A stretch of DNA of 64,000 nucleotides from a virus. The stretch is from the IMG/VR virus record IMGVR_UViG_3300018080_000098, positions 285,794 through 349,793 of that record. One strand, 5' to 3'. This document shows, piece by piece, positions 32,160-55,898 of the stretch. Position 1 is the first letter of the stretch. Every line of letters begins with the position of its first letter. A model generated the notes under the pieces. It was not told the origin of the DNA. It did not search any database and saw only the letters and a program-made list of their open reading frames with translations. The position numbers and the translations under genes are program-made.

Positions 32160-32783
32160 TCAGCCATCCAGCTGCGGAATCAGGAAGCTCACGAAGCACA
32201 CGCCGACGAGAACAGTACCGAATTTGTCGTCCACGACGAGGTCTTTGATGTGGTACTGCTGGTTGGCCATGAAATAGTGCTTGTTGCCTACGATGTGGCT
32301 AGACTGACTAGCCGGTCCGTAGCGACGCTCGAACAGACCGTTCATCGACTGGGTGAGCATCTTCCGAGCCTTCTCCGTAGAGCCACACCCTTCGTACTCA
32401 CAGGCGAAGCCGCCCACAAGTTCGTCAGAACGCTCTTCAGCAGGAAATGTCTTGTACACATCAAACGTGGCCACCCCCGCACAGAGGTGCTGCCCTTCTT
32501 CGCCGTTCATCTGGGCCATAATGCACTCGAGCACCATCCCGTGGTGCATGAGGCCCTGCTCCTGTGCGTCCTGGAGGGTGATCTGCTCCGCTTCCTTCGG
32601 AATCACACTCGTGTATTTTACGATGTTGCAGTTCTCGATGCCACCCTCGAGCAACGCGATGTCGTAGTCGGTCGTCTCCCACGGATCCGACCCGGGGCCG
32701 AAGTTGCTCTGCCCGGCGCCCGCGACGACGATGTATTTCTCGGGAATGCAGCTGGCTGTTCGGATCAGCTTGTGCTCACTCAT
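32160..32783 (-). CDS. pdaD: pyruvoyl-dependent arginine decarboxylase
   Basis: 207 residues aligning with archaeal PdaD: VVAGAGQSN, YDIALLEGGIENCNIVKYTS, VIPKEAEQI and GGFACEYEGCGSTEKARKML. The serine in YTS|VIP sits where these enzymes self-cleave to form the pyruvoyl cofactor (known for the family). It converts arginine to agmatine, the first step of one polyamine route. In a phage this may supply polyamines for DNA condensation (inference). No agmatinase is visible here. Confidence 0.85.
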   Translation of the reverse strand: MSEHKLIRTASCIPEKYIVVAGAGQSNFGPGSDPWETTDYDIALLEGGIENCNIVKYTSVIPKEAEQITLQDAQEQGLMHHGMVLECIMAQMNGEEGQHLCAGVATFDVYKTFPAEERSDELVGGFACEYEGCGSTEKARKMLTQSMNGLFERRYGPASQSSHIVGNKHYFMANQQYHIKDLVVDDKFGTVLVGVCFVSFLIPQLDG

Positions 32784-42117: not shown

Positions 42118-42309
42118 TTATTCGTCTCCCAGCACTTCAGGTGCCACCGCAGCCTCACAACCACCACTTCTTCGCTCATGGTAACGCATAGCCTGCATGC
42201 GAGGCAATACTACACGACACCAACAGGAGGAACACACGTACTGAATAGTAGTAGCTCCACCAGAGTGAACAGAGACAGGTATTCCACAGTACGGACAGAT
42301 GCCTAGCAT
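42118..42309 (-). CDS. 63-aa zinc-ribbon protein
   Basis: CPYCG at 5-9 and CSSC at about 27-30 form a zinc ribbon. The stop touches the next gene's ATG. First gene of the 39-42 kb run; a GCGAGGAG leader precedes it. Confidence 0.75.
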   Translation of the reverse strand: MLGICPYCGIPVSVHSGGATTIQYVCSSCWCRVVLPRMQAMRYHERRSGGCEAAVAPEVLGDE

Positions 42310-42433
42310 TTAAACACTCCTCGCTTTACCTTGCAGTGCAGTACACCGTCATGCCTCACCACACCCAGCGCCACGTCACCTTACGCCACCTCGCTTCGCA
42401 ACGTTGGTGTAATAGATTTTGTCTTTTGCTGGA

Positions 42434-42463
42434 GCTTCGGGCGTTGCCCTCCGAGCCCGAAGC
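42434..42463 (-). terminator. 9-bp stem hairpin
   Basis: GCTTCGGGC pairs with GCCCGAAGC around a 12-base loop, after the short gene at 42470. No long U-run. Confidence 0.45.
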
Positions 42464-42469
42464 GGTTGG

Positions 42470-42592
42470 TTAAGAAGGCTCCGTAATACTCGAGTACCTG
42501 GAATTCCTGGCCCCATGGTAAAGAGTCCCAGGAACTACCAGCGTACCCCGGGTGGCCAGCGACCACCGATTAAATGGTGACCACTTTTTCAT
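42470..42592 (-). CDS. 40-aa protein, possibly leaderless
   Basis: MKKWSPFNRWSLATRGTLVV and on to EPS. The ATG lies 7 bases after a -10 box, so the mRNA would start at or next to the start codon. An overlapping frame from GTG 42566 (61 aa) is also open, so the coding frame is uncertain. Confidence 0.4.
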   Translation of the reverse strand: MKKWSPFNRWSLATRGTLVVPGTLYHGARNSRYSSITEPS

Positions 42593-42599
42593 GCAACCG

Positions 42600-42629
42600 A
42601 GTGTAGGAGAGTTGCCAGCTAACTGTCAA
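42600..42629 (-). promoter_or_regulatory. promoter next to the iteron region
   Basis: -35 TTGACA, 18-bp spacer, -10 TACACT, ATG 7 bases downstream. Confidence 0.6.
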
Positions 42630-42810
42630 GTTTTTTCTGGAGCTCCTGGGAGATTGTTTAGCAGTGACCTCTGGGATGAAGCGGAACCGAGGAATATTTT
42701 TTGTTGTGTGCTCTGAGAAAAGAAATAAATTTGGTGGAGAGACAGCTGTGAAGTAGAAACGTTTTTCTTCAAAAAGTGACAGAGGAGATGTGCAGAGGAA
42801 GTGAATAAAG

Positions 42811-43032
42811 TGGAACACAGGGACAGTGGAACATCGGGAACACCGTGGAACAGTATTGGAACATCCTGGAGCAGAGAAAGGAACAACCAGTACCAGCATG
42901 GAACATTTCAAGATGACAAATGTGGAACAATCAGTATCCAACTGGAACATCCTGGACCAACAAAAGGAACATCATGGTACACCAGGAATATACTGGAACA
43001 TGATGGAACAACCGCTAACCAGTTGGAACATA
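42811..43032 (+). repeat. iteron-like TGGAACA repeats
   Basis: TGGAACA begins at 42811, 42827, 42846, 42857, 42899, 42923, 42943, 42993, 43004 and 43024, with degenerate copies (GGAACA) at 42881 and 42966. TGGAACATCCTGGA is exact at 42857 and 42943. Spacing is 10-40 bases, mostly near 20. Same-orientation repeats beside AT-rich DNA are typical of replication-initiator sites; an origin is the leading guess. Open plus frames here arise from the repeats. Confidence 0.7.
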
Positions 43033-43044
43033 GACCCAGAACAA

Positions 43045-43590
43045 TACAACCCAAATGTAAAAACCCCAAACATAACCAGAATATACAAGAGAACACAAAC
43101 AGCGAAAATAACACCAAAAGAACAAGTGGGATACAGTGGGACAAAGTGGGGAGAAGAGGGGAACATTGGGTTCCAGCCCCCTATACCCCTATATACCTCC
43201 TAAAAACCGTGTATTTCCGTGTATTTAGCCTATATAGGGCCCTATATACCCCATATTACAGGCCTTTTTGGCGATCAGATCCCCTGTTTTCCGTGTCTAC
43301 AGACCCTATTAGTCCACTATTACCCGCTCCCAACCCCTACAGATCCCCTATTACGGGTAGACTTAGTCCTATTTCTGCACCCAGATCCCCAACAAAAAAC
43401 ATGCCAATAAAAAGTAATAAATGTTTTCCTTGGCACTTGACATTGTATTGTTTGATCTGTTTTGTGCTTGGGGATCTATTATTTCCATTAAATCATGGTA
43501 ACTTTACATTGTCAAGTAAAAAATAAATTCTTTTTTCTGCGTAAGTGTGTTGACAACGTAAAGATCGTTGTTACGCGTACCCTGGTCTAA
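43045..43590. other. gene-free, partly AT-rich stretch
   Basis: No credible gene. It holds CCTATA-rich runs (CCCTATATACC type, 43180-43260), two more TGGGACA/GGAACA-like words near 43139-43162, and a TTGACA with a 17-bp-spaced TTTAAT on the minus strand near 43495-43520. It could be the unwinding region of an origin (inference). Confidence 0.5.
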
Positions 43591-43618
43591 TGGTTTAACC
43601 GAATACCGTAGGGGAAGG

Positions 43619-43640
43619 GGCTCCGGGAATTCCCGGAGCC
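43619..43640 (-). terminator. 22-bp perfect palindrome
   Basis: GGCTCCGGGAATTCCCGGAG plus CC: a perfect 11-bp stem just after the stop at 43660, before the GGTTTAACC box. Other units here end in a similar GC hairpin. Confidence 0.65.
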
Positions 43641-43659
43641 CTGGGGGAGGGGACGCGGG

Positions 43660-43965
43660 CTAGTTGAACTGGCGGACGGGCGGACCGGCGTTGACGCAGA
43701 TGTATCGGTCCTCCTCCGGGACCTTCACTCCGCGCTCTTCGAGCCAAACCGCCAGGGCGTGCACAATGAACTTGAACGTTTCCGTCATCACGTGCAGATC
43801 GTTGTGGGGGCCTTCGGGAATCTGCCGACGCTTGATGATCAGCTTGATGGCCCTTTCCGTGGCCTTCTGCATGCCCGGCCGCTTGAGAGCATCCCTGATC
43901 TCCTGATCCCCGGCGTGCGCCGCGACCATCTTCCGGATCTTCCGGCAACGTTGCTTCAGAGTCAT
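43660..43965 (-). CDS. 101-aa basic helical protein
   Basis: GAAAGGAAC precedes ATG 43965. Basic helices (LKQRCRKIRKMVAAHAGDQE, AIKLIIKRRQIPEGPHND) then VKVPEEDRYICVNAGPP. Unknown. It is the leftmost unit of the box-regulated module. Confidence 0.75.
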   Translation of the reverse strand: MTLKQRCRKIRKMVAAHAGDQEIRDALKRPGMQKATERAIKLIIKRRQIPEGPHNDLHVMTETFKFIVHALAVWLEERGVKVPEEDRYICVNAGPPVRQFN

Positions 43966-43989
43966 TCACGTTCCTTTCGTTGACTGCGG

Positions 43990-44035
43990 TTTCCGTCGAC
44001 ACACCAAATATAATAACGCACAGCTGCATCGGCAA
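43990..44035 (-). promoter_or_regulatory. promoter for the gene at 43965
   Basis: -35 TTGCCG, 17-bp spacer, -10 TATATT, then a diverged box (GTGTCGACGG). Confidence 0.75.
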
Positions 44036-44077
44036 CCCATTAAATGAAATATTTTTGACACACCACCCCAGGGGACC

Positions 44078-44326
44078 TTAGACTAGAACTAATGGTTTAA
44101 CCGAATACCCAGGATATAAAAAATCCCCGGGTGGCGAGAGTAGACCACCCGAGGAGAGGTCAACGGGGTGAACTGGGGTCCTTTCTTTTCCTGCGAACCC
44201 GGGCCCACCTGAATCGCAATCCGCGAAGCACCACCAGTCTCCGTTGGCTACCGGTCCGACGCGGTAACCCTGGCAGCGTTTCGCGAGCAACAGAACCAGA
44301 CAGGGAACGCGGCCACCAAAGGCCAA
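44078..44326 (-). CDS. doubtful or degraded gene
   Basis: The promoter and RBS (GAGAGGAAAC) are intact, but no ATG follows; a TTG at 44326 opens this frame (LAFGGRVPCLVLLLAKRCQG, GDWWCFADCDSGGPG). It runs through the hairpin at 44127-44152 and the GGTTTAACC box, which no other gene here does. Another frame stops properly at 44160 but lacks a start. Probably a broken gene or a sequence error. Confidence 0.3.
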   Translation of the reverse strand: MAFGGRVPCLVLLLAKRCQGYRVGPVANGDWWCFADCDSGGPGFAGKERTPVHPVDLSSGGLLSPPGDFLYPGYSVKPLVLV

Positions 44327-44355
44327 TTGATCGTCGTGTTTCCTCTCTGCTCCTG

Positions 44356-44400
44356 TTCCGTCCGACCACTCAAAGATAAGTCGCCACCCGAAAAACGCAA
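44356..44400 (-). promoter_or_regulatory. promoter and box upstream of 44326
   Basis: -35 TTGCGT, 16-bp spacer, -10 TATCTT, box GGTCGGACGGAA. Confidence 0.75.
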
Positions 44401-44548
44401 GAGGGAAAAATGAGATATTTTTGACGCGCCGAAACGCGCCATTCGATTTAATTGAACGCGCGCCCGCGCACACGCGAGATTAGGAGTATTGGTTAAACCA
44501 ACTAGACAAGGTGACAGCCCAGAGCTCGAGCCCTGGGTGCCCCTTTGT

Positions 44549-44722
44549 CTACTCCTCTTCCAGCTTGACGCAGATGGAGATGAGGGTATCCCGATGGGTC
44601 ACGAGGTACTCGACCCCGTTTCTCTCGGGCAGCGGGATGATCGCGCCGAGCAGGTAATCGTCGCGCTTCTCTTTGAAAAGGGTACGGACGCTTTCGATAA
44701 CGTCCTTCAGTGCTTGGTCCAT
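44549..44722 (-). CDS. 57-aa protein
   Basis: AAAGGAGG precedes ATG 44722. Reads MDQALKDVIESVRTLFKEKR then a beta part (NGVEYLVTHRDTLISICVKL). It lies 14 bases after the zinc-protein gene, as third in the operon. Confidence 0.68.
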   Translation of the reverse strand: MDQALKDVIESVRTLFKEKRDDYLLGAIIPLPERNGVEYLVTHRDTLISICVKLEEE

Positions 44723-44736
44723 GGGACCTCCTTTGT

Positions 44737-45132
44737 TTAGCAGTAGACCTGACGCTTCAGGGCGTGCCAGTAGTTACGGTGGGCGTCCGCGGGGCGCTGG
44801 TAGCCCTTGCCGTGGCAACGGAAGCAGATACCACCGGGCCCCTTGGGTTGGCCGTTCTCGACCATGGTGACAAACTGCCCCGTACCCGCGCACCGTTTGC
44901 AGTGCCAGGACACCCGACGCGCGTACTTCACCCAGTCCTGGGGAGTGGGCTCAGTGACCCCGGCCTTTTCCATGAGCTTGCGCACTGCGGCGTCGAATTT
45001 CTCATTGGTGGGGTACTCGGCGGAGCCGGAGTAGGACACCTTGACGGTGTACTTACGCGCGGCGCGGTACGCCTTACGGCAGCCTTCATCCGTGGTGAGA
45101 TCGTATCCCTCGAATTTCGGCATTCTCGACAT
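44737..45132 (-). CDS. 131-aa protein with DnaJ-type zinc pair
   Basis: CKRCAGTG and CFRCHGKG (C-terminal third) make a CxxCxGxG zinc site as in DnaJ. The N-terminal half is helical and basic. Middle gene of the operon. Confidence 0.78.
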   Translation of the reverse strand: MSRMPKFEGYDLTTDEGCRKAYRAARKYTVKVSYSGSAEYPTNEKFDAAVRKLMEKAGVTEPTPQDWVKYARRVSWHCKRCAGTGQFVTMVENGQPKGPGGICFRCHGKGYQRPADAHRNYWHALKRQVYC

Positions 45133-45141
45133 GGGGTACTC

Positions 45142-45357
45142 CTACCGGCACAGCCGGTGCGGGTCGTCGTTCGCCCGGCAGTTGATCCAGTTGCGCGGGT
45201 CCTCGGGCCGCGAGCGCACGTTGAGGTCCTCGTCCAGCTGGGGGATCAGGTCGCGCAGGACGTCGTTGGTCCGCTCGCGGTGCCTGAGCCACACCAGGAC
45301 GACCAGCTCCCGCTTGGCCTCACGCTTCTCCTCGTCCGTCATGTTGGGGTAGTGCAT
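45142..45357 (-). CDS. 71-aa acidic/basic helical protein
   Basis: ATG 45357 after GGAGAAAC. MHYPNMTDEEKREAKRELVV then LRHRERTNDVLRDLIPQLDE. First gene of its operon. Unknown. Confidence 0.7.
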   Translation of the reverse strand: MHYPNMTDEEKREAKRELVVLVWLRHRERTNDVLRDLIPQLDEDLNVRSRPEDPRNWINCRANDDPHRLCR

Positions 45358-45380
45358 GTGTGTTTCTCCGCTGCTAGGTG

Positions 45381-45427
45381 TTTCCGTCCGACTGCACACA
45401 AGGTAAGCACGCGCATTACATTGTCAA
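45381..45427 (-). promoter_or_regulatory. promoter and box for the 45357-44549 operon
   Basis: -35 TTGACA, 16-bp spacer, -10 TACCTT, box AGTCGGACGGAAAC. Confidence 0.78.
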
Positions 45428-45448
45428 GAAACTTTTTTCAAAAATATT

Positions 45449-45649
45449 TCACGCGCCATGGTTAGCACCCTCCAACCATTCCTCTATTATCAAACGGGAA
45501 TACCATTTTCTTTCCCGGTCTTGTCGGCACTCCCACATAAAAGCGATCTGTTCCTCTATACTCCTACGCTCTAACCAATGAGGGCACACCTCGCAAGCGA
45601 TATGGTTCTCACCTAGGGGAAGGTTGTACGGGCAGGTGTTACAGGTCAT
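45449..45649 (-). CDS. 66-aa zinc-binding protein
   Basis: MTCNTCPYNLPLGENHIACE then CPHW: Cys pairs at 3-6 and 19-22. ATG overlaps the previous stop. Confidence 0.7.
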   Translation of the reverse strand: MTCNTCPYNLPLGENHIACEVCPHWLERRSIEEQIAFMWECRQDRERKWYSRLIIEEWLEGANHGA

Positions 45650-45813
45650 TCGACTTCACCCGTAAGCAGAGCTCTCAGGTCTGCTTGTAGTTCACTAGCT
45701 ATAACTAGGTGTCTCTCGGTGGCCTGGGTATCCCCTTTGATGCACGCTGCTAGCGCGCGGTCTAGCTGAATCCGAACATTATCACTGTACCAGCGAATCA
45801 GATTGTTCCACAT
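45646..45813 (-). CDS. 55-aa helical protein
   Basis: AAGGAGG precedes ATG 45813. MWNNLIRWYSDNVRIQLDRA then a Thr/Glu helix. Coupled to the zinc protein downstream. Its promoter is not clear: TTGTCA near 45860 has no good -10. Confidence 0.65.
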   Translation of the reverse strand: MWNNLIRWYSDNVRIQLDRALAACIKGDTQATERHLVIASELQADLRALLTGEVE

Positions 45814-45916
45814 GTTGCGCCTCCTTCATAAGAAGAACGCGCGTATGCGAAAAACCTGACAAGAAAAATGCGTGCCGGGGAGGGCTACTGGTTAAACCGA
45901 ATGGTAAGGGGAAGGG

Positions 45917-46090
45917 CTAGGCTGGGTCCTGCTGGACCTTACCCCGGCAGGCTTTTTTGCGCTGGGCGTTGCGCTTGTTGGGGTGGCGACCCGCGCCACT
46001 GCGCCACGAGGCGATCAGCGCGTAGGGGTTACGCTTAGCCTTCGTGGCCTTGCGCACGCGCCGCTGTTTTTTCTTTCGCCTACGTGCCAT
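45917..46090 (-). CDS. 57-aa very basic protein, leaderless mRNA
   Basis: MARRRKKKQRRVRKATKAKR, then NPYALIASWRSGAGRHPNKR: a nucleic-acid-binding-like composition. No RBS. The ATG is 6 bases after the -10, so transcription should begin at the start codon. Confidence 0.65.
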   Translation of the reverse strand: MARRRKKKQRRVRKATKAKRNPYALIASWRSGAGRHPNKRNAQRKKACRGKVQQDPA

Positions 46091-46096
46091 GCGTAC

Positions 46097-46125
46097 AATG
46101 TAGCAACGATGCTTTACTGCGTCAA
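46097..46125 (-). promoter_or_regulatory. promoter without operator box, abutting ATG
   Basis: -35 TTGACG, 17-bp spacer, -10 TACATT. The box seen at neighbouring promoters is absent because the ATG occupies its place. Confidence 0.7.
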
Positions 46126-46234
46126 GCGGCAACTAAAATATTTTGCACAGGATGTTAGGTTAAACCAATAAACACAGACAAAGAAAACCCGGAGCCGTGG
46201 CCCCGGGTATTAGGGAGGATAGGTTGCTAGTAGG

Positions 46235-46678
46235 TTACTGCGCCGTCTGGAGCGCCAACGAGGGGTCGATGACGGCGGCGACGACGAGGTATTTCCCTTT
46301 GACGGTCCCGAAGGACAGCAGGCCCAGCTTGGGGCGGTAGCCCAGAATACTGGTCACAGCCTGCATGGCGTGGTCCCCGGCGATTTTGCCGCGCTTTTCC
46401 TGATTGAGTACAACGATGGAGACGGAGGTTGTACTCCGCGACATGCAGCCCCGCGTGACCACGACGTAGGCGTGGCTGGTCTTGGCTTTCCCGAGCACCT
46501 TGCAGCGGGAGCTGAGCTTGCTCGGCTGGGCGGTCTGCGTTTTCTTGGGCTTGTGCGCCGTGGGGTTGTGCGTCTGCGCCGCGCAACCCGTTCCGAAAAG
46601 CAGGGAAACGAGAACGGCGAACAGCGCGCCCGCCGCCATCAGGGAAACCACTTGGCCTGCCTCTTTCAAATTGTCCAT
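46235..46678 (-). CDS. 147-aa lipoprotein or membrane-anchored protein
   Basis: Hydrophobic segment (VVSLMAAGALFAVLVSLLFG) followed by TGC, a possible lipobox, then a Thr/Pro/Lys linker and a beta-rich domain with two Cys (SSRCKVLGKAKTSHAYVVVT, RGCMSRS). Unknown. Confidence 0.72.
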   Translation of the reverse strand: MDNLKEAGQVVSLMAAGALFAVLVSLLFGTGCAAQTHNPTAHKPKKTQTAQPSKLSSRCKVLGKAKTSHAYVVVTRGCMSRSTTSVSIVVLNQEKRGKIAGDHAMQAVTSILGYRPKLGLLSFGTVKGKYLVVAAVIDPSLALQTAQ

Positions 46679-46700
46679 TGTTGCCTCCGCTCGCTAGTTG

Positions 46701-46748
46701 TTTCCGTCCGACTGCGAAAAAGATAATCACGCAACTTGACGCGGTCAA
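46701..46748 (-). promoter_or_regulatory. promoter and box for the gene at 46678
   Basis: -35 TTGACC, 17-bp spacer, -10 TATCTT, box AGTCGGACGGAAAC. Confidence 0.8.
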
Positions 46749-46836
46749 GTGACAAAATGAAATATTTTTTACGTGCATCCCCAGGGGCAGGGCTATCGGT
46801 TTAACCGAGTAGAGTACGGGGGCGCACCCCGTGCAG

Positions 46837-47022
46837 CTAAAGCCTCCTCTCCCAACTCGCATTGGGGGTGAACCAGATGCTTTCGTTGCCGCACGCGTTT
46901 CGGCGTGCCTCGGCTTCCGTCGAATATTCGGCAGCCTGTTGACGGTCGCTTGTGTAGGACCGCTCAGAGCCGGGACGCGCTACGTACTTTCCGTCACTTG
47001 TCCGCTTGATTACGTAGACCAT
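46837..47022 (-). CDS. 61-aa protein
   Basis: ATG 47022. MVYVIKRTSDGKYVARPGSE then YTSDRQQAAEYSTEAEARRN: a small beta/alpha domain of the kind phages use widely, function unknown. Third gene of its operon. Confidence 0.7.
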   Translation of the reverse strand: MVYVIKRTSDGKYVARPGSERSYTSDRQQAAEYSTEAEARRNACGNESIWFTPNASWERRL

Positions 47023-47023
47023 C

Positions 47024-47413
47024 CTAGTAGCACTCCGTCCAGTGCTCACCCGTCTCCTCGCCCCACTGGGAACGGGGCGCCAGAGCCTGCCCGGACATGT
47101 TGTAGTCCGTCTCGCACTCGTAGCAGGTGTTCGTGAACCGGGACAGTTCCACCTCTTCCCCACAGCTACACCGACCCACGCGGGGATGGCGGTAGGTCCA
47201 CTCCCGCTTGATGACCCCGCGGCAAACTACGTCAACCTCGCCGCATAAACACTTGCCAAAATTCTCGCGCGCCGCTGGGTGCATGGCGTCGATGTCCACG
47301 TTCCCGTCTTCGTCACAGTCGAACGTGAAACCCCAACCCCGATGCCCTCGGTAATCGAAGTCCAGCGTGTAGTCCACACCCGTCTCTTCGTAAGACTCCC
47401 TGATGATCTTCAT
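47024..47413 (-). CDS. 129-aa zinc-binding protein
   Basis: GKCLCGEVD, RCSCGEEVE and TCYECETDY give three Cys pairs. The N-terminal half is acidic (DYTLDFDYRGHRGWGFTFDC). Unknown. Confidence 0.75.
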   Translation of the reverse strand: MKIIRESYEETGVDYTLDFDYRGHRGWGFTFDCDEDGNVDIDAMHPAARENFGKCLCGEVDVVCRGVIKREWTYRHPRVGRCSCGEEVELSRFTNTCYECETDYNMSGQALAPRSQWGEETGEHWTECY

Positions 47414-47414
47414 C

Positions 47415-47795
47415 TTAATACCCCATCACGTCGTTGTACCCGTCGCACCCGAAGGCCATCCCCGCCTGCATGGCCATCTCGTTATCCCAATCGGAATAAT
47501 CGACGGGCTGCGGGCTGAAAGATTTGATTCGGATTTCCCGATGCACGTCGGGACCGTCGAGCACCACGTACTCCGTGTCCTTGTTGGAACAGTAACCACC
47601 CTGCACCCGCTTCCCCGACTCGAGCTCCTCGACCACCTCCTTGAGATACGCCTCCGCCTCCTCCCGCGTGGCGAAAGCCGCACCCGCCCAACAGTCGTCA
47701 TCGGTGAAGGGCTCACTGCCCCACAGGTCCACCGTGTAGTCGGTGGGCTGAACGGGCTTGTTGACGGCGTTACGATCTTCGCGATAGGTATTCAT
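47415..47795 (-). CDS. 126-aa acidic protein
   Basis: First gene of the operon. PTDYTVDLWGSEPFTDDDCW, then FATREEAEAYLKEVVEELES, a pattern typical of small phage proteins that align a residue pattern to columns of Glu. Unknown. Confidence 0.75.
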   Translation of the reverse strand: MNTYREDRNAVNKPVQPTDYTVDLWGSEPFTDDDCWAGAAFATREEAEAYLKEVVEELESGKRVQGGYCSNKDTEYVVLDGPDVHREIRIKSFSPQPVDYSDWDNEMAMQAGMAFGCDGYNDVMGY

Positions 47796-47816
47796 GTGTG
47801 TGACTCCGTGTGCGTT

Positions 47817-47862
47817 GTCCGTCCGACAAAAACAAGATAACCATGCAGCTTGACGGCGTCAA
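47817..47862 (-). promoter_or_regulatory. promoter and box for the 47795 operon
   Basis: -35 TTGACG, 17-bp spacer, -10 TATCTT, box TGTCGGACGGAC. Confidence 0.8.
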
Positions 47863-47923
47863 GTTTTTCCGCAAAATATTTTTGCGCGCCTGGTAGGGTT
47901 GTCGGTTTAACCAATAGACCAGG

Positions 47924-47995
47924 GTGCATGACGGAACTCGAATCCGCAACCTCCGGGACCACAACCCGGCGCTCTACCGATTGAGCTACATGCAC
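47924..47995 (-). tRNA. tRNA-His (GTG)
   Basis: Full cloverleaf: acceptor GTGCATG/CATGCAC including the extra 5' G typical of tRNA-His, D arm with AGCTCAATCGG, anticodon stem CCGGG/CCCGG with loop TTGTGGT, T loop with GGATTCGAGTTCC. No encoded CCA. Confidence 0.92.
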
Positions 47996-47996
47996 A

Positions 47997-48084
47997 TGGC
48001 AGGGGTAGGATTCGAACCTACGGTGGTACTCGTGGAGTGACTAGATTTACAGTCTAGCGCCTTCAACCTCTCGGCCACCCTGCC
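47997..48084 (-). tRNA. tRNA-Tyr (GTA)
   Basis: Acceptor GGCAGGG/CCCTGCC, anticodon stem CTAGA/TCTAG with loop CTGTAAA, long variable arm as in bacterial tRNA-Tyr, T arm GTAGG-TTCGAAT-CCTAC. One base from tRNA-His, so one transcript. Confidence 0.93.
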
Positions 48085-48090
48085 GAAAGT

Positions 48091-48170
48091 GCTTCGGGTA
48101 GGACTGAGCCCTTTTGTTGTCCTGTGGGAAGCTATCTCCACAGCCCTGTCAATTCAGAGCTACCCGAAGC
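48091..48170 (-). ncRNA. four-way-junction RNA
   Basis: An 11-bp closing stem (GCTTCGGGTAG/CTACCCGAAGC) encloses three hairpins: CTCT/AGGG-type, CTGTGG/CCACAG with a 10-base loop, and GGAC/GTCC. It is shaped like a tRNA but has no T-loop consensus or anticodon arm of correct size. It lies 6 bases from tRNA-Tyr on the same transcript. Confidence 0.6.
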
Positions 48171-48335
48171 TGTAGGGTTAAGGGAAGCGCTTCATAGGTT
48201 TCCCTCCACGCGGCCCTCTGAGTGCCCTACGTCACTGCCTCGTTAGGTCGTGGCCACTCCCTGTTTTTTGCTGGGACCATCCAGCTTCTTCGTGGGGTGG
48301 CGTCCCCACTAGCCTGTGGTTAGCAGGCACGTTCG
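48171..48335 (-). other. non-coding, further hairpins
   Basis: No open gene. AGGGAA/TTTCCCT, GTGGGG/CCCCAC and GCCTG/CAGGC hairpins suggest the 3' part of the upstream mRNA or a second RNA feeding the tRNA cluster. Confidence 0.45.
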
Positions 48336-48509
48336 TTACATCGGGATGACCAGCACCCCGCGCTTCTCTTCGTCCTGGGGAACGTCCTCGCGCTGCCCTT
48401 CGAGGTACTCCAGATACCTCGGATCGTAGACCTCCACTCGGGGCTGCGGGCGCTCACGTTCCGCGATCTCCTGAACCAGCTTCTCACTACGTCGCCAATC
48501 GATCAACAT
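48336..48509 (-). CDS. 57-aa charged protein
   Basis: GGAG precedes ATG 48509. MLIDWRRSEKLVQEIAERER, then PRVEVYDPRYLEYLEGQRED and a hydrophobic end VLVIPM. Leads the transcript that ends in the tRNAs. Confidence 0.68.
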   Translation of the reverse strand: MLIDWRRSEKLVQEIAERERPQPRVEVYDPRYLEYLEGQREDVPQDEEKRGVLVIPM

Positions 48510-48527
48510 GATTCATCTCCGTGTGCT

Positions 48528-48575
48528 GTTTCCGTCCGACGTGAAAAATATAACAACGCGTCTTTACGTTGTCAA
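48528..48575 (-). promoter_or_regulatory. promoter and box for the 48509/tRNA unit
   Basis: -35 TTGACA, 17-bp spacer, -10 TATATT, box CGTCGGACGGAAAC. One of the strongest promoters here. Confidence 0.85.
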
Positions 48576-48596
48576 GAAACTTTTTCGCGCCCGGCG

Positions 48597-48809
48597 TCAA
48601 TGCACCTCTCGGTGAGGCCTCGACAGATGAGCGATGAGCGTGGCACAGCATAGCATGTTGATATGAACCTCGTCCAGCTGCTTGGCCAGCACCTTACGGG
48701 TAGCATCCGACATAGTCTCGGTCTTCAGCTTAGTGGCCAGATGCTCCACCCAACGGGAAGCCTGCTTCCCTTCCTTCATCAACAGTTCGATTGCTTCTTT
48801 GTGCGACAT
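48597..48809 (-). CDS. 70-aa helical protein, paralogue of 49715-49930
   Basis: MSHKEAIELLMKEGKQASRW, ending LCCATLIAHLSRPHREVH; the paralogue ends VCALLVGHLMRPRDVVH. Both have a hydrophobic helix then a basic HLxRP tail. Unknown. Confidence 0.72.
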   Translation of the reverse strand: MSHKEAIELLMKEGKQASRWVEHLATKLKTETMSDATRKVLAKQLDEVHINMLCCATLIAHLSRPHREVH

Positions 48810-48820
48810 GAAATTTCTCC

Positions 48821-48868
48821 GTTTCCGTCCGACGCACACAAGGTAAGCACGGCACTTTACGCGGTCAA
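48821..48868 (-). promoter_or_regulatory. promoter and box for the gene at 48809
   Basis: -35 TTGACC, 17-bp spacer, -10 TACCTT, box CGTCGGACGGAAAC. Confidence 0.8.
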
Positions 48869-48933
48869 GTATTTTTCTGCAAAATATTTCGCGCGCTATC
48901 CTACGTATCGGTTAAACCGAGTAGCTGAATAGC

Positions 48934-48968
48934 GAAGGGGATCCGTCCACACAAAACGGATCCCCTTC
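48934..48968 (-). terminator. 13-bp stem terminator of the RNA at 48939-49257
   Basis: GAAGGGGATCCGT pairs with ACGGATCCCCTTC around a 9-base loop. In the transcript the loop contains TTTTG and a GGTTTAACC-type box follows. Confidence 0.6.
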
Positions 48969-49257
48969 TAGTAGTCTTGCCCACGGGAGTTACTTACTCT
49001 CCCTGCCTGATGTGGGCGCGTGTCGGCCAGGCGACGGAGTCCTTAGTGCCCCATCCCGGATTTGAACCGGGAACCTCTTGGCCCGACTTTTTCACAGGTG
49101 CGGACCTGTTACTTCCTGTCGGAAGGGAACGGGGGTATCGCCCTAGGCAATCTGTACCGCAATAAGATCACTTCATCTTTACAGACCTCCTAGGCGCTAG
49201 CCTTTCCATTCGACGGCTACCTTTCCGTCGTTGGGGCTTACGGGCGTTTCCGCCAGT
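48939..49257 (-). ncRNA. structured RNA with tRNA-like T arm, mini-ORF and pseudoknot
   Basis: Own promoter, own terminator, no gene. In transcript order: a hairpin CGACGG/CCGTCG (49211-49230 region), a Shine-Dalgarno AGGAGG with ATG AAG TGA (49168-49176), a T-arm-like CCCGG-TTCAAAT-CCGGG (about 49050-49070), whose following TGGGGC can pair with GCCCCA near the 5' end, then a pseudoknot (48979-49032) shared with the RNA at 50317-50410. It is not a normal tRNA (no anticodon arm). About 320 nt. Confidence 0.55.
49168..49176 (-). other. two-codon mini-ORF (ATG AAG TGA) with strong RBS
   Basis: AGGAGG at 49186-49191 is ideally spaced from ATG 49176. Minigenes of this type are known in phage lambda (bar), where they trap peptidyl-tRNA. 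Here it lies inside a structured RNA. Confidence 0.4.
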
Positions 49258-49292
49258 GGATCTAACATAATCACGTTGCTTGACGGCGTCAA
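49247..49292 (-). promoter_or_regulatory. promoter for the structured RNA, box diverged
   Basis: -35 TTGACG, 17-bp spacer, -10 TATGTT. Where other promoters have GTCGGACGGAAAC it has ACTGGCGGAAAC, so this RNA may escape the shared regulator. Confidence 0.7.
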
Positions 49293-49506
49293 GTGAGAAA
49301 ATCGAACGCGCGTTTTCTTTTAATGAACGCGCGCACGCGCACGCGAGGTATACCATTCGGTTTAACCAGTAGACGTAGGCAAAAAGAAACGGCGTGCTTA
49401 CATCTCACACGCCGCTTCACTCAACCGTATTTAGTTTTTCTCGCTAGTCTGCTGTGTTCGGCCCCGGCCACCCACTGCTGAAGTGCCCTTTCGCAGATGG
49501 CCGGGG

Positions 49507-49707
49507 CTAGAGTAAACGAAGTCTCGGGTCTTTAGGATAGATGAGCTTGACTTTATTCCCAACACTGAAGGGCATCGGTACCACCCACCTGTCCACTGGC
49601 ATACCCCGTTGCTCGGCCGCACGCAGGGTTACCACCAGACTGCGCAGCCGCACACAACGCACCGTTGTCAATGCGACCAGCAGGATATGGAGGATACCGT
49701 TCAGCAT
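49507..49707 (-). CDS. 66-aa small protein
   Basis: Hydrophobic N-terminus (MLNGIL HILLVALTTVRCV) then a basic, beta-like tail ending YPKDPRLRLL. Last gene of its operon. Confidence 0.65.
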   Translation of the reverse strand: MLNGILHILLVALTTVRCVRLRSLVVTLRAAEQRGMPVDRWVVPMPFSVGNKVKLIYPKDPRLRLL

Positions 49708-49714
49708 TCTAAAC

Positions 49715-49930
49715 CTAGTGGACCACGTCCCGAGGACGCATCAGGTGCCCCACCAGCAGAGCGCACACCATGACGTTTCGCCCCAGCTCCTCGATCTGAG
49801 CCCGGACCACCGCGGCCCCCGCCGACGACATGGGCTCGTTTTCCAGCACTTCCGCCAGATACTGCGCGTGCCGCAGCGATACCGCACCGTCTTCCCGAAG
49901 GGCCTCGACACTCTCGTAGACCATCGTCAT
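49715..49930 (-). CDS. 71-aa helical protein, paralogue of 48597-48809
   Basis: MTMVYESVEALREDGAVSLR, ending MVCALLVGHLMRPRDVVH. Same size and tail as the paralogue 900 bp away, in a different operon. Confidence 0.72.
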   Translation of the reverse strand: MTMVYESVEALREDGAVSLRHAQYLAEVLENEPMSSAGAAVVRAQIEELGRNVMVCALLVGHLMRPRDVVH

Positions 49931-49945
49931 CGCCTTACCCCTTTC

Positions 49946-50146
49946 CTAGCAGACCACCGCCCGCACCAGAGTCGAGTCGCTCCGGTACTCCGCGTACCGA
50001 TTGGTCGAAGCGAACCCCTCCACCGGAGCGTCCGGCATCAGGTATTGACGAATGGCCCAGAACGCCGACTTGGCCCGAAGGACCGTACTGTAGACCTTCG
50101 TCCGCTGCCCGTCCTTCTCCTCGAAATGATTGACCTGGAATCGCAT
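49946..50146 (-). CDS. 66-aa protein
   Basis: ATG 50146. MRFQVNHFEEKDGQRTKVYS, then VLRAKSAFWAIRQYLMPDAP: a small beta-alpha fold with an aromatic helix. First of three genes. Confidence 0.7.
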   Translation of the reverse strand: MRFQVNHFEEKDGQRTKVYSTVLRAKSAFWAIRQYLMPDAPVEGFASTNRYAEYRSDSTLVRAVVC

Positions 50147-50163
50147 TTTTCTCTCCGTGCGTT

Positions 50164-50210
50164 GTTTCCGTCCGACGAAACAAACATAAATCGCCGCAAG
50201 AAAAACGCAA
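50164..50210 (-). promoter_or_regulatory. promoter and box for the 50146 operon
   Basis: -35 TTGCGT, 16-bp spacer, -10 TATGTT, box CGTCGGACGGAAAC. Confidence 0.8.
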
Positions 50211-50316
50211 CCGAAAAAACGACACACGCACAAATTTTTTAATGGTCCACAGGAAAGACTCGAGCCCTACCCCTACCCTACACCTAATGGTTTAACCGAG
50301 TACCCCAATAGCGAAA

Positions 50317-50410
50317 CGGAGCCCCCACCCAAGGGCTCCGTCTCTAGTAGTTTCGCCCGCGGGAGTTACCTAGTCTCCCTGGCCAGCTACGGGCTTACTG
50401 GCCTGGCAAC
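50317..50410 (-). ncRNA. pseudoknot RNA element plus terminator
   Basis: GCCCG(50355)/CGGGC(50390), inner hairpin GGGAG/CTCCC, and GGCCAG(50381)/CTGGCC(50398) interleave as an H-type pseudoknot, followed in the transcript by hairpin CGGAGCCC/GGGCTCCG (50317-50340). The same arrangement occurs in the RNA at 48939-49257. It lies 3' of the gene ending at 50453. Confidence 0.6.
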
Positions 50411-50452
50411 GGACATCGCCACCGTTTAGTCTAGTCGATAACAGCTACCGCG

Positions 50453-51016
50453 TCAATCGCTTTCCGCCTCGACCGCCTGGACGAGCGCCAGCATTTCCCG
50501 ACACTCCCCAGCTTTGCTCTCAGCCCACCGCGCCGCACACTCGGCCGACTCCAGACAGGCTTGGAGAATACCCTTGGACCTTGGGTGGCGCTTCCACCCC
50601 GACATCCGAGGCAGCCGACAGAAATGGACCGGGGGCAGGTAACCCAGGGCGACGAAAGCCCCGCAGATCTTCCACGTCAAATCCACCCCGCCACCCGTCA
50701 AGGCAAGCCCCGTTAACCCGTTCGAGAACTCCACGATACACAACGGGAAATCCGCGATTTTCTCCGCCGCACCCTCGCAGTCCTGAATGTCCACGGGATA
50801 CCAGTAGCTCATCATCGGACCCGTGTCGCCCTCGTACTCCGTGCCACACTCGGGGCAACAGGGGAATACCCCTACCCCCACGTACTCGTGACCACACTCG
50901 GGGCACTCCACCGCCTCGTAGACGACGTACCCTTCCAGATCCTCGCCCAGAGCCTTCCCCCAGTCGATGTCCTGGGGTGTGCTGTCCACCGCGTTACAGC
51001 TCAGCTTGTTACGCAT
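50453..51016 (-). CDS. 187-aa protein with two zinc ribbons
   Basis: CPECGHEY (about 38-45) and CCPECGTEY (about 52-60) form a zinc-ribbon pair. Then an alpha/beta domain (SNGLTGLALTGGGVDLTWKI) and a Cys-containing helical end. It resembles small phage zinc proteins; function unknown. Confidence 0.78.
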   Translation of the reverse strand: MRNKLSCNAVDSTPQDIDWGKALGEDLEGYVVYEAVECPECGHEYVGVGVFPCCPECGTEYEGDTGPMMSYWYPVDIQDCEGAAEKIADFPLCIVEFSNGLTGLALTGGGVDLTWKICGAFVALGYLPPVHFCRLPRMSGWKRHPRSKGILQACLESAECAARWAESKAGECREMLALVQAVEAESD

Positions 51017-51194
51017 GGGCCACCTCCCACCGCTCGAACGCCACCCGCGCCGACTCCTCCGCGTCCTTGTCCTTCGCCGTACCGAAGTCCGAACGAATGG
51101 ACATGAGCTCGTTGAACCCCTGCTCGTCCCCCTCCTCCGCCACCCGTTCCAGGTGACTCCACAGCTTGTCGTACCAGTGTTCTCCGAATTTCAT
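51009..51194 (-). CDS. 61-aa helical protein
   Basis: ATG 51194 after AAGGAGT. MKFGEHWYDKLWSHLERVAE, acidic middle, ends FERWEVAHA. Overlaps the zinc-ribbon gene by 8 bases. Confidence 0.7.
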   Translation of the reverse strand: MKFGEHWYDKLWSHLERVAEEGDEQGFNELMSIRSDFGTAKDKDAEESARVAFERWEVAHA

Positions 51195-51210
51195 TTTGCA
51201 CTCCTTCGCA

Positions 51211-51257
51211 GTTTCCTTCCGACACACACAAGTTAAATCGCCGTGCGAAAAAAGCAA
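51211..51257 (-). promoter_or_regulatory. promoter for the 51194-50453 operon
   Basis: -35 TTGCTT, 16-bp spacer, -10 TAACTT, box TGTCGGAAGGAAAC (one mismatch). Confidence 0.75.
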
Positions 51258-51385
51258 CTGAAAAAATGAAATATTTTTGAGCGCCGCGGCGCAAGCTTAC
51301 CCTGGGGAGGCAGGGGCTATTGGTTTAACCGAATATCCTGGGGAGCCTTTCGGCTCGAGTCCCCCTATTCGGTTATGTCACTGGG

Positions 51386-51532
51386 CTAGGCGCCGACGAC
51401 GTCGATGGTCCAGCCCCGGCCGAAGGCCATGCGGTACTCCATGGCGAGGATCTCCGCCTCCTGCTTGGACTCGGCCTCGTCCACGACCTCGCTGTTGCCC
51501 TCGTAGTAACCGATAATCAGATACTTGCGCAT
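51386..51532 (-). CDS. 48-aa protein
   Basis: AGATTCCCT then ATG 51532, reading MRKYLIIGYYEGNSEVVDEA and a C-terminal strand WTIDVVGA. Small alpha/beta domain. Second gene of the operon. Confidence 0.65.
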   Translation of the reverse strand: MRKYLIIGYYEGNSEVVDEAESKQEAEILAMEYRMAFGRGWTIDVVGA

Positions 51533-51545
51533 AGGGAATCTCCTT

Positions 51546-51986
51546 TCAACACCAGTAGAAACCGCACCCCTTCTCCTGGCAGTGCTCCACCAGTTCCATC
51601 AGGTCATCCAGACGACGGGTGACGTAATCGTCGTCCCGACCACAGTAGACCACCCGACACTGGCCAGTCCCCGGACCACCCGACTCGTAGGGCTCCGCCG
51701 TGGCGCCCGTGCGCACGCTGGCCACGTTGCGCGCTTTGATGATCGCGCGCCGGGTACGGGGAAGGTCCTCGACCTCGACGTGCCCGGAGTAGTCCAGGGA
51801 GCACCCCAGCAGTTCCATCATGGCGTAGGCATTGGCGTTGGCCATGTTGATCGTGGGGCAGTCGGGATCTTCCCGATAACCCGTGCAGAACGGATCGTCG
51901 TTGGTATCCGCATCACACACCTTGCAATAGGTGCAGGGACGCTTGACCATCTTATACTCGTAATCGGGATAGAAGGTGATCGACAT
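51546..51986 (-). CDS. 146-aa Cys-rich protein
   Basis: CTYCKVC, FCTGYREDPDC and CQEKGCGFYWC suggest metal binding at both ends, with helices between. First gene of its unit. Unknown. Confidence 0.72.
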   Translation of the reverse strand: MSITFYPDYEYKMVKRPCTYCKVCDADTNDDPFCTGYREDPDCPTINMANANAYAMMELLGCSLDYSGHVEVEDLPRTRRAIIKARNVASVRTGATAEPYESGGPGTGQCRVVYCGRDDDYVTRRLDDLMELVEHCQEKGCGFYWC

Positions 51987-52001
51987 GTTGTGTGCTCCAC
52001 T

Positions 52002-52048
52002 GTTTCCGTCCGACCAATCAAATATAAGTCGCCTCAATTTTCGCGCAA
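52002..52048 (-). promoter_or_regulatory. promoter and box for the 51986 operon
   Basis: -35 TTGCGC, 16-bp spacer, -10 TATATT, box GGTCGGACGGAAAC. Confidence 0.8.
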
Positions 52049-52169
52049 CCCCACAAAAAATTATTTTTGCACGTCGCCTCCCCTCACCTACCGGTTTAAC
52101 CATTAACCCCAAACAAAGAAACGGGGAGAACCCGTAGGCCCTCCCCGCTCCCCTAACTCGTGTGCTCCC

Positions 52170-52409
52170 CTAGTCCGCGATCTCCTCCAGCGCCAGCAGA
52201 TCCCGAAGCAGCGCCCGCTCCGCCGCGCCGCCGGATCCGAAAGCACAGATCGTCACCCAACCACCCGCACCCTTCCGCAGCCAACACCCGTTCACACTCA
52301 CCGGAACCGAGCCCCCGCAGTGCTTGTCCTGCTCCCGCTCGATCGTCGCCAGCACTTCCCCCTTCACCTGCACCCGCGCCGCCGTGTCACTGATCATCTT
52401 GACTTTCAT
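52170..52409 (-). CDS. 79-aa protein
   Basis: MKVKMISDTAARVQVKGEVL and VPVSVNGCWLRKGAGGWVTI: a small beta protein of unknown function. Confidence 0.7.
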   Translation of the reverse strand: MKVKMISDTAARVQVKGEVLATIEREQDKHCGGSVPVSVNGCWLRKGAGGWVTICAFGSGGAAERALLRDLLALEEIAD

Positions 52410-52430
52410 TTTTGATCTCCTCGCAAACTG

Positions 52431-52478
52431 TTTTTCCATCCGACCAATCAAATATAAATCGCCGCACAAAAAACACAA
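52431..52478 (-). promoter_or_regulatory. promoter and box for the gene at 52409
   Basis: -35 TTGTGT, 16-bp spacer, -10 TATATT, box GGTCGGATGG. Confidence 0.72.
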
Positions 52479-52554
52479 GTGACAAAATGAAATATTTTTG
52501 CGCGCAGTGCCCACGACCAGGACAACTCGGTTTAACCAAATATCGTAGGGAAGG

Positions 52555-52576
52555 GGGACAGGGCGCACCCTGTCCC
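52555..52576 (-). terminator. GC hairpin after the gene at 52587
   Basis: GGGACAGGG and CCCTGTCCC form a 9-bp stem with a 4-base loop, then the GGTTTAACC box 17 bases on. Confidence 0.7.
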
Positions 52577-52586
52577 GTGGGGTATG

Positions 52587-53159
52587 CTACTCGGCGGAGT
52601 GAATGAGGCGAGTCAACTCGTTGGACAACCGCAAAGCGTGCTCCATACCCAGGAACGTCTTGAGCAGGAACACGTTGGTCACCTTGAGCTCTCGGTCGTA
52701 GGGGTCATCCTTATGGTAGATGTCCACGTGAACGTAGTGGCCTTCGCTTCCTCCCTCGACGGCGAACACGGCGATGCGATGGACATTGTCGGGCCAGTGG
52801 GTCCACTCGCGAGTGTACCGCGCACCCGGCCCCACGTCGAAATATTCGTCGACGATCAGACCGGCGTCCTCCAGACGGCTCGACAATTTCTTGAGAATCT
52901 CCGACAGCGGGCGCCCGGACGCGCGCCGGATGTACCCCGTCTCCTCCCCCGTGGATTTCTCCACGACGGGAGCCCAGTCTTCGAGGACTAGCTCGTAGGG
53001 CTTTGTCTCGTTGGGCTCGCCCAGCACGTAGAGCTCTGCCAACTCGTCTTTGCTCAAGTTATACTTGAGGACGTGGTGACGCGCCCACGCATTTTCCGCA
53101 GCAGCGTAGGCACGCTGATCTGCCTCGTTCAATTTGTCCAAGTATTTCTTGGGGATCAT
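52587..53159 (-). CDS. 190-aa protein of unknown function
   Basis: ATG 53159 after AGGAGCACAC. N-terminal helical third (LNEADQRAYAAAENAWARHH), central beta region (GARYTREWTHWPDNVHRIAV), C-terminal VFLLKTFLGMEHALRLSNEL. No family recognised. Confidence 0.75.
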   Translation of the reverse strand: MIPKKYLDKLNEADQRAYAAAENAWARHHVLKYNLSKDELAELYVLGEPNETKPYELVLEDWAPVVEKSTGEETGYIRRASGRPLSEILKKLSSRLEDAGLIVDEYFDVGPGARYTREWTHWPDNVHRIAVFAVEGGSEGHYVHVDIYHKDDPYDRELKVTNVFLLKTFLGMEHALRLSNELTRLIHSAE

Positions 53160-53171
53160 GTGTGCTCCTGT

Positions 53172-53219
53172 GTGTTTCCGTCCGATGCACAACAAGTTAA
53201 GGCGGCCCCACAAAAAGTC
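53172..53219 (-). promoter_or_regulatory. promoter and box for the gene at 53159
   Basis: -35 TTGACT, 16-bp spacer, -10 TAACTT, box CATCGGACGGAAAC. Confidence 0.78.
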
Positions 53220-53374
53220 AACCAGATATTTTACAAACACCCAATTTTATTTCGATAAAATTCGACGGCGCGAAATGAATAATACCCTACGCCCTAACCC
53301 CTTCCCCCTCACCTACTGGTTTAACCATTAAACAGTGCCCCAGGACGGGGCAAGGAATGTGCTGGGCGTAGAGC

Positions 53375-53764
53375 CTAGGCGGGGTAAGGTAGGTCGTCCA
53401 CGTCTACCGAATACATCAGAGCATAATCGCCGCTGTACTCCATGTAGCCGAAGTAGACGGAACCCGGCAGATCAGCAGGCAATTTCGCATTGATCTGCTC
53501 GGCCAGTTTCTCTGTCCCTTCTTCGACGGCTTCGTTGCCGTCGTCATACTTGATGTCTTCGTCCGTGAGTACGATGTCCAGGACCTCCGCGACGTGGCGC
53601 GGGATGTAGATCCCCCGGCAGCAATCCGCGAGGATCTGCAAAGCGACCTCGCATCGATCGTCGTCGCAGTAATCCGCGAAATCGTCCGGGGTTTTCCACC
53701 CGTCCAACCAGCTACGGATCTCCGCCTCGATCCCTTCGACCATCGTTTCCGTGACCTCGATCAT
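53375..53764 (-). CDS. 129-aa acidic protein
   Basis: MIEVTETMVEGIEAEIRSWL, Cys at YCDDDRCE and DCCRG, acidic C-terminus (YMEYSGDYALMYSVDVDD). Low net charge suggests DNA mimicry is possible, but this is speculation. Unknown. Confidence 0.72.
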   Translation of the reverse strand: MIEVTETMVEGIEAEIRSWLDGWKTPDDFADYCDDDRCEVALQILADCCRGIYIPRHVAEVLDIVLTDEDIKYDDGNEAVEEGTEKLAEQINAKLPADLPGSVYFGYMEYSGDYALMYSVDVDDLPYPA

Positions 53765-53778
53765 TCTGTGTGCTCCTT

Positions 53779-53824
53779 TTCCGTCCGACGTGCAAAATAT
53801 AATGCGCCGCAATTCGCCGCGCAA
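53779..53824 (-). promoter_or_regulatory. promoter and box for the gene at 53764
   Basis: -35 TTGCGC, 17-bp spacer, -10 TATATT, box CGTCGGACGG. Confidence 0.8.
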
Positions 53825-53935
53825 GTGCAAAAACGACACGCACTGAATTTTTTTAATGGGCGTCCCCATACCCTATGCCCAGGGCGAGCTCGAGTAGGTT
53901 AAACCAAATAGCAAAGGGGAGAAGCTCCCCCTGGG

Positions 53936-54295
53936 CTAACAGCCCATCATCCTTTCCATCCGACACTCCTGCTCGTAGCACGCCTCGTACTCCAGGTATT
54001 GCTGGTACGCCTTACACGCTTCCGGGTTCTGCTCCTCGAACGTCTCCCAGTCCACCTCCAGCACCTTGCCCGTCGAGCGGCAAGCGGCGCACGGGCGGTC
54101 GTAACCACCCGACATGTAGTGCGCGAAGTCGTCGTGGTCCCAGTCCCGGTCCCGGTCTTCCTGCGTGATGGCTCCGAGGTAGGCCGACTCTTTACCCTCC
54201 CCGTTGCAGACGTAGCAGATCTGCCACTCCATAGGGATCTCCACACAGACTTCGTCGCCGTCGTCGTTCTCGTACTCGAAAAGTTTGCTCGGCAT
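53936..54295 (-). CDS. 119-aa Cys-rich acidic protein
   Basis: CYVCNGEG and CAACRSTGK give a DnaJ-like CxxCxGxG pair about 40 residues apart. Acidic start and an end EACYEQECRMERMMGC. Confidence 0.75.
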   Translation of the reverse strand: MPSKLFEYENDDGDEVCVEIPMEWQICYVCNGEGKESAYLGAITQEDRDRDWDHDDFAHYMSGGYDRPCAACRSTGKVLEVDWETFEEQNPEACKAYQQYLEYEACYEQECRMERMMGC

Positions 54296-54313
54296 CTTGC
54301 GCTCCTGATTCGG

Positions 54314-54359
54314 TTGTCCGTCCGACACACAAAAAGTAAACCGGCCACACAAAAAGTCA
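54314..54359 (-). promoter_or_regulatory. promoter and box for the gene at 54295
   Basis: -35 TTGACT, 16-bp spacer, -10 TACTTT, box TGTCGGACGGAC. Confidence 0.78.
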
Positions 54360-54499
54360 ATCGAATATTTTGCAACGCACGGATTTTGTTGCAATAAAAC
54401 TTGACGACGTAAAGACGTGTACCCTAGGGGTATAGCAGCGGTGTTCGGTTAAACCAAAAGGTGAACGCCCCGGGAAGGGGCATCCCGTAGCCGAGGGGT

Positions 54500-54850
54500 C
54501 TACTCGTACCGGACACCCGGGCCGAAGCGCATCCCTGCCTCCGCTCGGCGCTCGGCTTCCTCCTCCGCCCTACACTCCCGGGCGTAGGCCAACTGCTGCT
54601 CCGTCTCCGGGTCCAGGATAGCAGCATCGCTCCAGTAGGGGCTGACCGTGAAGTGCTCGGCGCCCATCCCGCGATACTGGATCGCCCGGTTGACGTTCAC
54701 ACACAGCCGACCGAGACGCGCGGGGACACCCGGCTTGTCGGTCCATTCCGTGTGCTCGTGATACCAGCACCGATTGCTGACATGGTCCTTCACCACCAGC
54801 AAGCAAAGGGTTGCTTCTTCCAGCGGCCAAAGCTCAACGTGTGCGCGCAT
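54500..54850 (-). CDS. 116-aa protein
   Basis: MRAHVELWPLEEATLCLLVV, a His/Trp patch (CWYHEHTEWTDK), then a Glu/Arg coiled coil (YARECRAEEEAERRAEAGMR). Unknown. Confidence 0.72.
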   Translation of the reverse strand: MRAHVELWPLEEATLCLLVVKDHVSNRCWYHEHTEWTDKPGVPARLGRLCVNVNRAIQYRGMGAEHFTVSPYWSDAAILDPETEQQLAYARECRAEEEAERRAEAGMRFGPGVRYE

Positions 54851-54869
54851 TGTGTGTCTCCGTGTGCTG

Positions 54870-54915
54870 TTTCCGTCCGACGCACACAAGATAAATCTGG
54901 CAACCGGAAAGTCAA
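54870..54915 (-). promoter_or_regulatory. promoter and box for the gene at 54850
   Basis: -35 TTGACT, 16-bp spacer, -10 TATCTT, box CGTCGGACGGAAAC. Confidence 0.8.
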
Positions 54916-55432: not shown

Positions 55433-55487
55433 GCTGTCATCTCCGTGGGCATTGTGCCCGGCTGTTGATTGCGGCGGCTGCTGAATT

Positions 55488-55843: not shown

Positions 55844-55898
55844 CCTTCCCCGGGTAGCACTACGCTACCCGGGGAAGCGCGGCTGCGTAGCAGCGTAG

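Follow-up and report, generated by a model that had tools for sequence, protein, structure and literature searches.

The gene-free region and its repeats

The window analyzed here comprises 64,000 nucleotides, bases 285794 to 349793 of a 349,793-bp virus contig (G000; a jumbo phage of ~350 kb). Between the genes at 42118-42309 (-) and 43660-43965 (-) lies a 1.35-kb region with origin-like and regulatory features (Table 1). The initial annotation had described part of it as gene-free and AT-richer, and this description stands. ORFs crossing 42310-43659 have flat GC1/2/3 profiles, whereas most real genes show strong bias; none of these ORFs has a Pfam or PHROG match, and the AT-richness had even been understated. 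No family matches were obtained for the genes neighboring the array.

Table 1. Sequence features in and beside the gene-free region (window coordinates)
Feature	Coordinates	Strand	Details
Gene-free regulatory/origin-like region	42310-43659		1.35 kb
Promoter-like TTGACA-18-TACACT	42600-42629	-	Between array and next gene; consensus match only
TGGAACA iteron-like array	42811-43030	+	10 exact copies, 16 with ≤1 mismatch, one orientation
A-rich, T-poor strand-asymmetric spacer	43031-43165	+	A 50 / T 12 per 100 bp
Second repeat family, CCTAT/CCCTAT	43176-43393	-	7 copies, with C-runs
Most AT-rich 200 bp of the 64-kb window	43341-43560		GC 0.325, minimum of all 200-bp windows
Near-consensus promoter TTGACA-17-TTTAAT	43487-43515	-	Leftwards through the repeats; identified in the sequence itself
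First of 25 GGTTWAACC sites	43592-43600		Marks regulatory modules up to 63.5 kb

The array had been reported as about ten TGGAACA copies in one orientation over 220 bp, with one 14-mer present twice. Both observations were confirmed: all 10 exact copies lie on the + strand, and the 14-mer TGGAACATCCTGGA occurs at 42857 and 42943. The other 63.8 kb of the window holds seven more exact copies, no other 7-mer of the window reaches 10 copies per 220 bp, and no second TGGAACA cluster of this kind is present anywhere in the 349,793-bp contig. None of 5,000 shuffles of the 235-bp stretch matched either count, 10 exact or 16 one-mismatch; the highest shuffle count with one mismatch allowed was 4. With up to one mismatch allowed, the array contains no reverse-strand copies. 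Across the 16 one-mismatch copies, GG and CA are invariant, and the base directly 5′ of the heptamer is not conserved.

Successive spacings between these 16 copies are 16, 9, 10, 11, 10, 12, 20, 24, 20, 10, 12, 10, 19, 10, and 20 bp. Apart from the single 16, they fall within 9 to 12 or 19 to 24 bp, about one or two helical turns, and they favor multiples of ~10.2 to 10.5 bp (P = 0.0015 at 10.5 bp; P = 0.011 over periods 8 to 14). For the exact copies alone, phasing corrected for periods 8 to 14 was not significant (P = 0.22); thus, near-helical phasing of the array copies is claimed with only moderate confidence. This spacing, the second repeat family, and the uniqueness of the array within the contig are features beyond those first annotated. 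A coding repeat was ruled out, as the copies are not spaced by multiples of three and the GC1/2/3 profile is flat. No tRNA or Rfam element was found at the array. DnaA boxes and alphaproteobacterial LexA boxes (GTTC-N7-GTTC), judged by eye, are not favored given the unconserved preceding bases and the spacings of 9 to 12 bp.

The remainder of the region is also structured. A few degenerate GAACA/GGGACA copies (43089-43159) lie within the A-rich spacer. The seven CCTAT copies fall in 43180-43372, a density reached in 0 of 10,000 shuffles, and the CCCTAT form spans 43179-43351 in the same gap as the TGGAACA array. A minus-strand transcript of the second-repeat region would carry 12 G-runs of at least three in 231 nt. 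The promoter at 43515-43487 is absent from the scanner list because the scanner accepts a -10 box only with A as its second base; near the array, no + strand promoter was found. From its composition, the segment 43341-43560 is a candidate unwinding element that also bears a promoter, and its AT-richness is partly explained by that promoter. Just after the gene at 43660-43965 (-), positions 43618-43641 form a perfect palindrome with 12-bp arms, GGGCTCCGGGAATTCCCGGAGCCC, a candidate terminator-like element or binding site.

The array had also been placed at a boundary of regulatory modules, which the distribution of GGTTWAACC sites supports. All 25 sites (GGTTTAACC/GGTTAAACC) lie at 43592-63471, in the last 20 kb, and none occurs in the first 43.5 kb of the window. 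Repeated promoter-like blocks (CTTGACGnnGTCAAG, AATATAAnCACG) surround the 25 sites, which look like a family of co-regulated early promoters or operators of the phage. Adjacent tRNA-His and tRNA-Tyr genes lie amid these modules at 47922-48084 (-).

TGGAACA arrays in other phages and in bacteria

Close relatives of the locus were not found. No close relative carrying the array was recovered, the window had no DNA matches among phages, relatives of the proteins neighboring the array were not found, and no relatives were reached by way of the GGTTTAACC site. IMG/VR viral contigs were scanned for three tightly spaced copies of TGGAACA, with the reversed word as a control (at least 120 loci each). 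Among the matches listed, 43/120 TGGAACA loci versus 3/120 reversed-word loci had one or more spacings not divisible by three, the pattern expected of noncoding arrays. The 43 are not all independent: about half belong to one broad lineage with shared terminase or MoxR/VWA-type genes, the rest being diverse.

Ten of the arrays, among the loci listed, lie ≤81 bp 3′ of a large ORF. Nine of these ten ORFs are initiator-type primase/helicases or their homologues, of four kinds: D5/DUF5906 (L080, L113, L139, and L185), AAA_25 primpol (RepA-like; L098, L176, and L220), DUF927 with a Cch HTH (L161), and VapE (L235). Bacterial contigs supplied two further initiator-adjacent arrays (L462, VapE-like; L469, D5-like). 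Inverted pairs are the layout of many of the comparison arrays, whereas the array of G000 is one-directional, a difference that weighs against an origin in G000.

Other arrays have different surroundings. In the largest comparison lineage (~25 loci), the array lies between early genes and terminase, where a role in regulation or packaging is also possible. In ~20 comparison loci, a TerL-like ORF is found ~1 to 6 kb from the array. One broad lineage of uncultured phages (L032, L075, L148, L192, L204, L251, L253, and others) keeps an inverted TGGAACA array (--- .. -- .. ++ .. +++) of ~300 to 400 bp, with MoxR-like AAA, DUF3150-like, and VWA genes to one side of it and terS/terL to the other.

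In isolate phages with P4-family primases, the gap that follows the primase is likewise repeat-bearing and AT-rich but is built from other words (GTAAC-, GTGAATA-, and CAGGGCA-type). Therefore, the link between TGGAACA and P4-family primases is not universal, and judging from these sequences TGGAACA is one recurrent specificity among several. The scan of bacterial genomes gave 36 hits; about half were excluded because they come from a single dispersed element in Azospirillum sp. TSO22-1. That genome (L454, L455, L459, L461, L464, L466 to L468, and others) contains many dispersed short elements with three TGGAACA copies at 10-bp spacing.

A candidate replication origin and competing explanations

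The reading that we favor for the gap at 42310-43659, with a probability of about 0.5, is an iteron-type site at which this large phage would initiate replication. An iteron-type origin is favored because the same heptamer, in near-helical arrays, recurs beside initiator helicases of unrelated phages. The region also combines short direct repeats in noncoding DNA with an adjoining AT-rich element, the segment of lowest GC in the window. The initial annotation had already suggested a replication origin here. That proposal has gained indirect support from the unrelated phages, but of its expected companions, no skew switch was seen and no initiator gene was found among the families searched. In a profile drawn from sampled contig stretches and the window, GC skew is negative on both sides of the array with no switch; elsewhere, skew partly follows gene orientation. 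A strand-composition switch is a supporting sign only and no strict requirement for phage origins. Searches of the contig for Rep_3, DUF5906, D5_N, VapE, and DUF927 gave no match, and the ~170 kb of contig read contained no convincing initiator relative of any ORF from the array-bearing phages. A weak D5_N match (E = 0.28) in a 932-aa ORF was attributed to chance, as this ORF reads as a tail-fiber-like repeat protein.

Under the origin reading, a putative phage-encoded DNA-binding protein would line up along the 16 near-helically spaced copies, roughly on one face of the helix. Protein bound in this way could strain the neighboring AT-rich DNA (43341-43560) until it opens, and the DnaB-like helicase of the phage would then be loaded there. 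Transcription from the leftward promoter at 43515-43487 might assist loading by supplying an RNA primer or R-loop; the early transcript of this promoter would contain many G-runs. It is also conceivable, but unlikely, that TGGAACA serves different phages as a common origin word. A single mobile DNA-binding module would read it, in fusion or partnership with several unrelated initiator helicases (SF3/D5, VapE, DUF927, RepA-like primpol, and perhaps DnaB-like), and this phage would employ that module as a stand-alone protein for starting a T4-type replisome.

To our knowledge, hardly any replication origins have been mapped in very large phages, and what the iterons of T4 oriE do is still undefined. 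A unique, near-helically phased array beside the local AT maximum offers a precise place for origin tests. One heptamer in noncoding arrays beside different kinds of initiator helicase also provides a sequence handle for origins in uncultured phages, and its recurrence makes one ask which common DNA-binding domain recognizes TGGAACA.

Among known systems, T4 oriE is the closest precedent because the phage encodes a T4-like helicase cluster, at 134 to 144 kb of G000, with a DnaB-like helicase (phrog_19) and a T4-type/UvsW DNA helicase (phrog_16). Judged by its helicases, the phage has a T4-type replisome. Large myophages hold relatives of the DnaB-like protein at ~24 to 30% identity. T4 oriE combines evenly spaced 12-nt direct repeats with dependence on an early promoter, and its repeats have no proven role in oriE activity (PMC3016281). 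G000 likewise has a cluster of evenly spaced direct repeats, and its candidate early promoter nearby is a consensus match only. The repeat itself differs, however, and oriE lies near a transcription switch, whereas the G000 array does not.

The origins of SaPI/PICI elements and of phages with P4-family/SF3 primases similarly place short iterons beside AT-rich DNA, and other phages hold the exact TGGAACA heptamer 3′ of such primases. In PICIs, iterons flank AT-rich DNA immediately 3′ of the initiator gene (PMC6092414). The G000 array, in contrast, is one-directional (0 reverse copies) rather than two opposed iteron sets, and it does not lie beside an initiator gene, with no DUF5906 or D5_N in the contig. 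Because these two defining features are missing, the array is not classed with SaPI/PICI origins. Rep_3 iteron plasmid origins (R6K and RK2) also pair direct repeats with an AT-rich region. Their iterons are ~17 to 22 bp long, whereas G000 has a 7-bp core at ~10 to 11 bp and no Rep_3.

The main rival to an origin is a regulatory array, because promoter-like sites flank the repeats and a modular promoter region adjoins them. A phage or host transcription regulator could bind the TGGAACA copies cooperatively and thereby control one or both of the leftward promoters (43515-43487 and 42629-42600), where an early-type regulatory region begins or ends. We consider this possible, although somewhat doubtful. 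Its appeal lies in position: a promoter-like site is found on either side of the array, the 20-kb series of 25 GGTTWAACC sites and their shared promoter blocks starts here, and the array of the largest comparison lineage separates early genes from the terminase module. However, the array word differs from that of the other modules and is used once in the contig, 16 copies are many for an operator, and in several phages TGGAACA follows initiator genes on their 3′ side instead of preceding promoters.

A segregation site appears very improbable. A ParR/StbA/TubR-like protein would polymerize on the near-helically spaced repeats and couple the DNA to a filament, and the direct repeats of ParMRC parC and stbDR sites do occur at ~11 bp, a layout that the one-directional repeats of G000 at ~10 to 11 bp resemble. 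Partner genes for such a system were not found in G000 in a search with StbA_N only, a weak test whose control also gave no match; weak controls affect some of the other negative searches as well. Among the loci examined, no relative of the array lies beside par genes.

Packaging is very improbable. A pac-like site bound by the small terminase would accord with the TerL-like ORFs near the comparison arrays mentioned above, but those arrays that directly follow initiator helicases on the 3′ side serve no terminase function. Moreover, no terminase was recognized near the G000 array, and a PF03237 search of the whole contig was empty with a positive control.

We give equally little credence to a decoy or captured origin. 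As a decoy, the array would mimic origins of smaller competitors, phages or satellites, and titrate the initiators of these elements; as a captured origin, it would be what is left of an acquired one. The same heptamer does occur in origin-like arrays of unrelated smaller phages, no cognate initiator was found in G000, and ICP1 Odn provides precedent for a phage able to exploit satellite iterons (PMC8263062). Nevertheless, the one-directional layout is unlike most of those smaller-phage origins.

Least credible is a functional RNA, such as a structured leader or a protein-binding sponge. Folding of the + strand is slightly better than that of shuffled versions (z = -1.9), but no + strand promoter was found close by, the predicted transcribed strand lacks a stable fold (z = +0.7), no Rfam match was obtained at the array, and near-helical spacing is a property of duplex binding.

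The contig and other genes of the window

Iterons had been taken as a hint that the element might be a plasmid or phage-plasmid. This hint is not supported: the contig contains no tyrosine integrase and no Rep_3 (the latter searched with a working control), it carries the T4-like helicase cluster, and such arrays are common in ordinary-sized phages. Integrase attP arm sites were ruled out as an identity for the array, the contig being without a tyrosine integrase. A ~19-bp tandem repeat, CCGTACACCCGAGCATCCC, is present at both contig extremities (window positions 63893-64000 and G000:1-110). Because both ends fall within one and the same repeat, G000 is probably a nearly complete, circularly mapping genome that was opened or broken there.

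Several other genes of the window could be assigned. The product of 28358-29164 (-) is a metallo-beta-lactamase-fold protein that matches the anti-Pycsar protein Apyc1 (E = 1.6e-22) and is likely encoded by a counter-defense gene. A pyruvoyl-dependent arginine decarboxylase is encoded at 32160-32783 (-). Beside it, 30905-32026 (-) encodes a radical SAM protein with 44% identity to one of T4-like enterobacterial phages. Finally, 21261-22067 (-) encodes an AAA/SMC-type ATPase fragment-like protein (AAA_23, ABC_tran).
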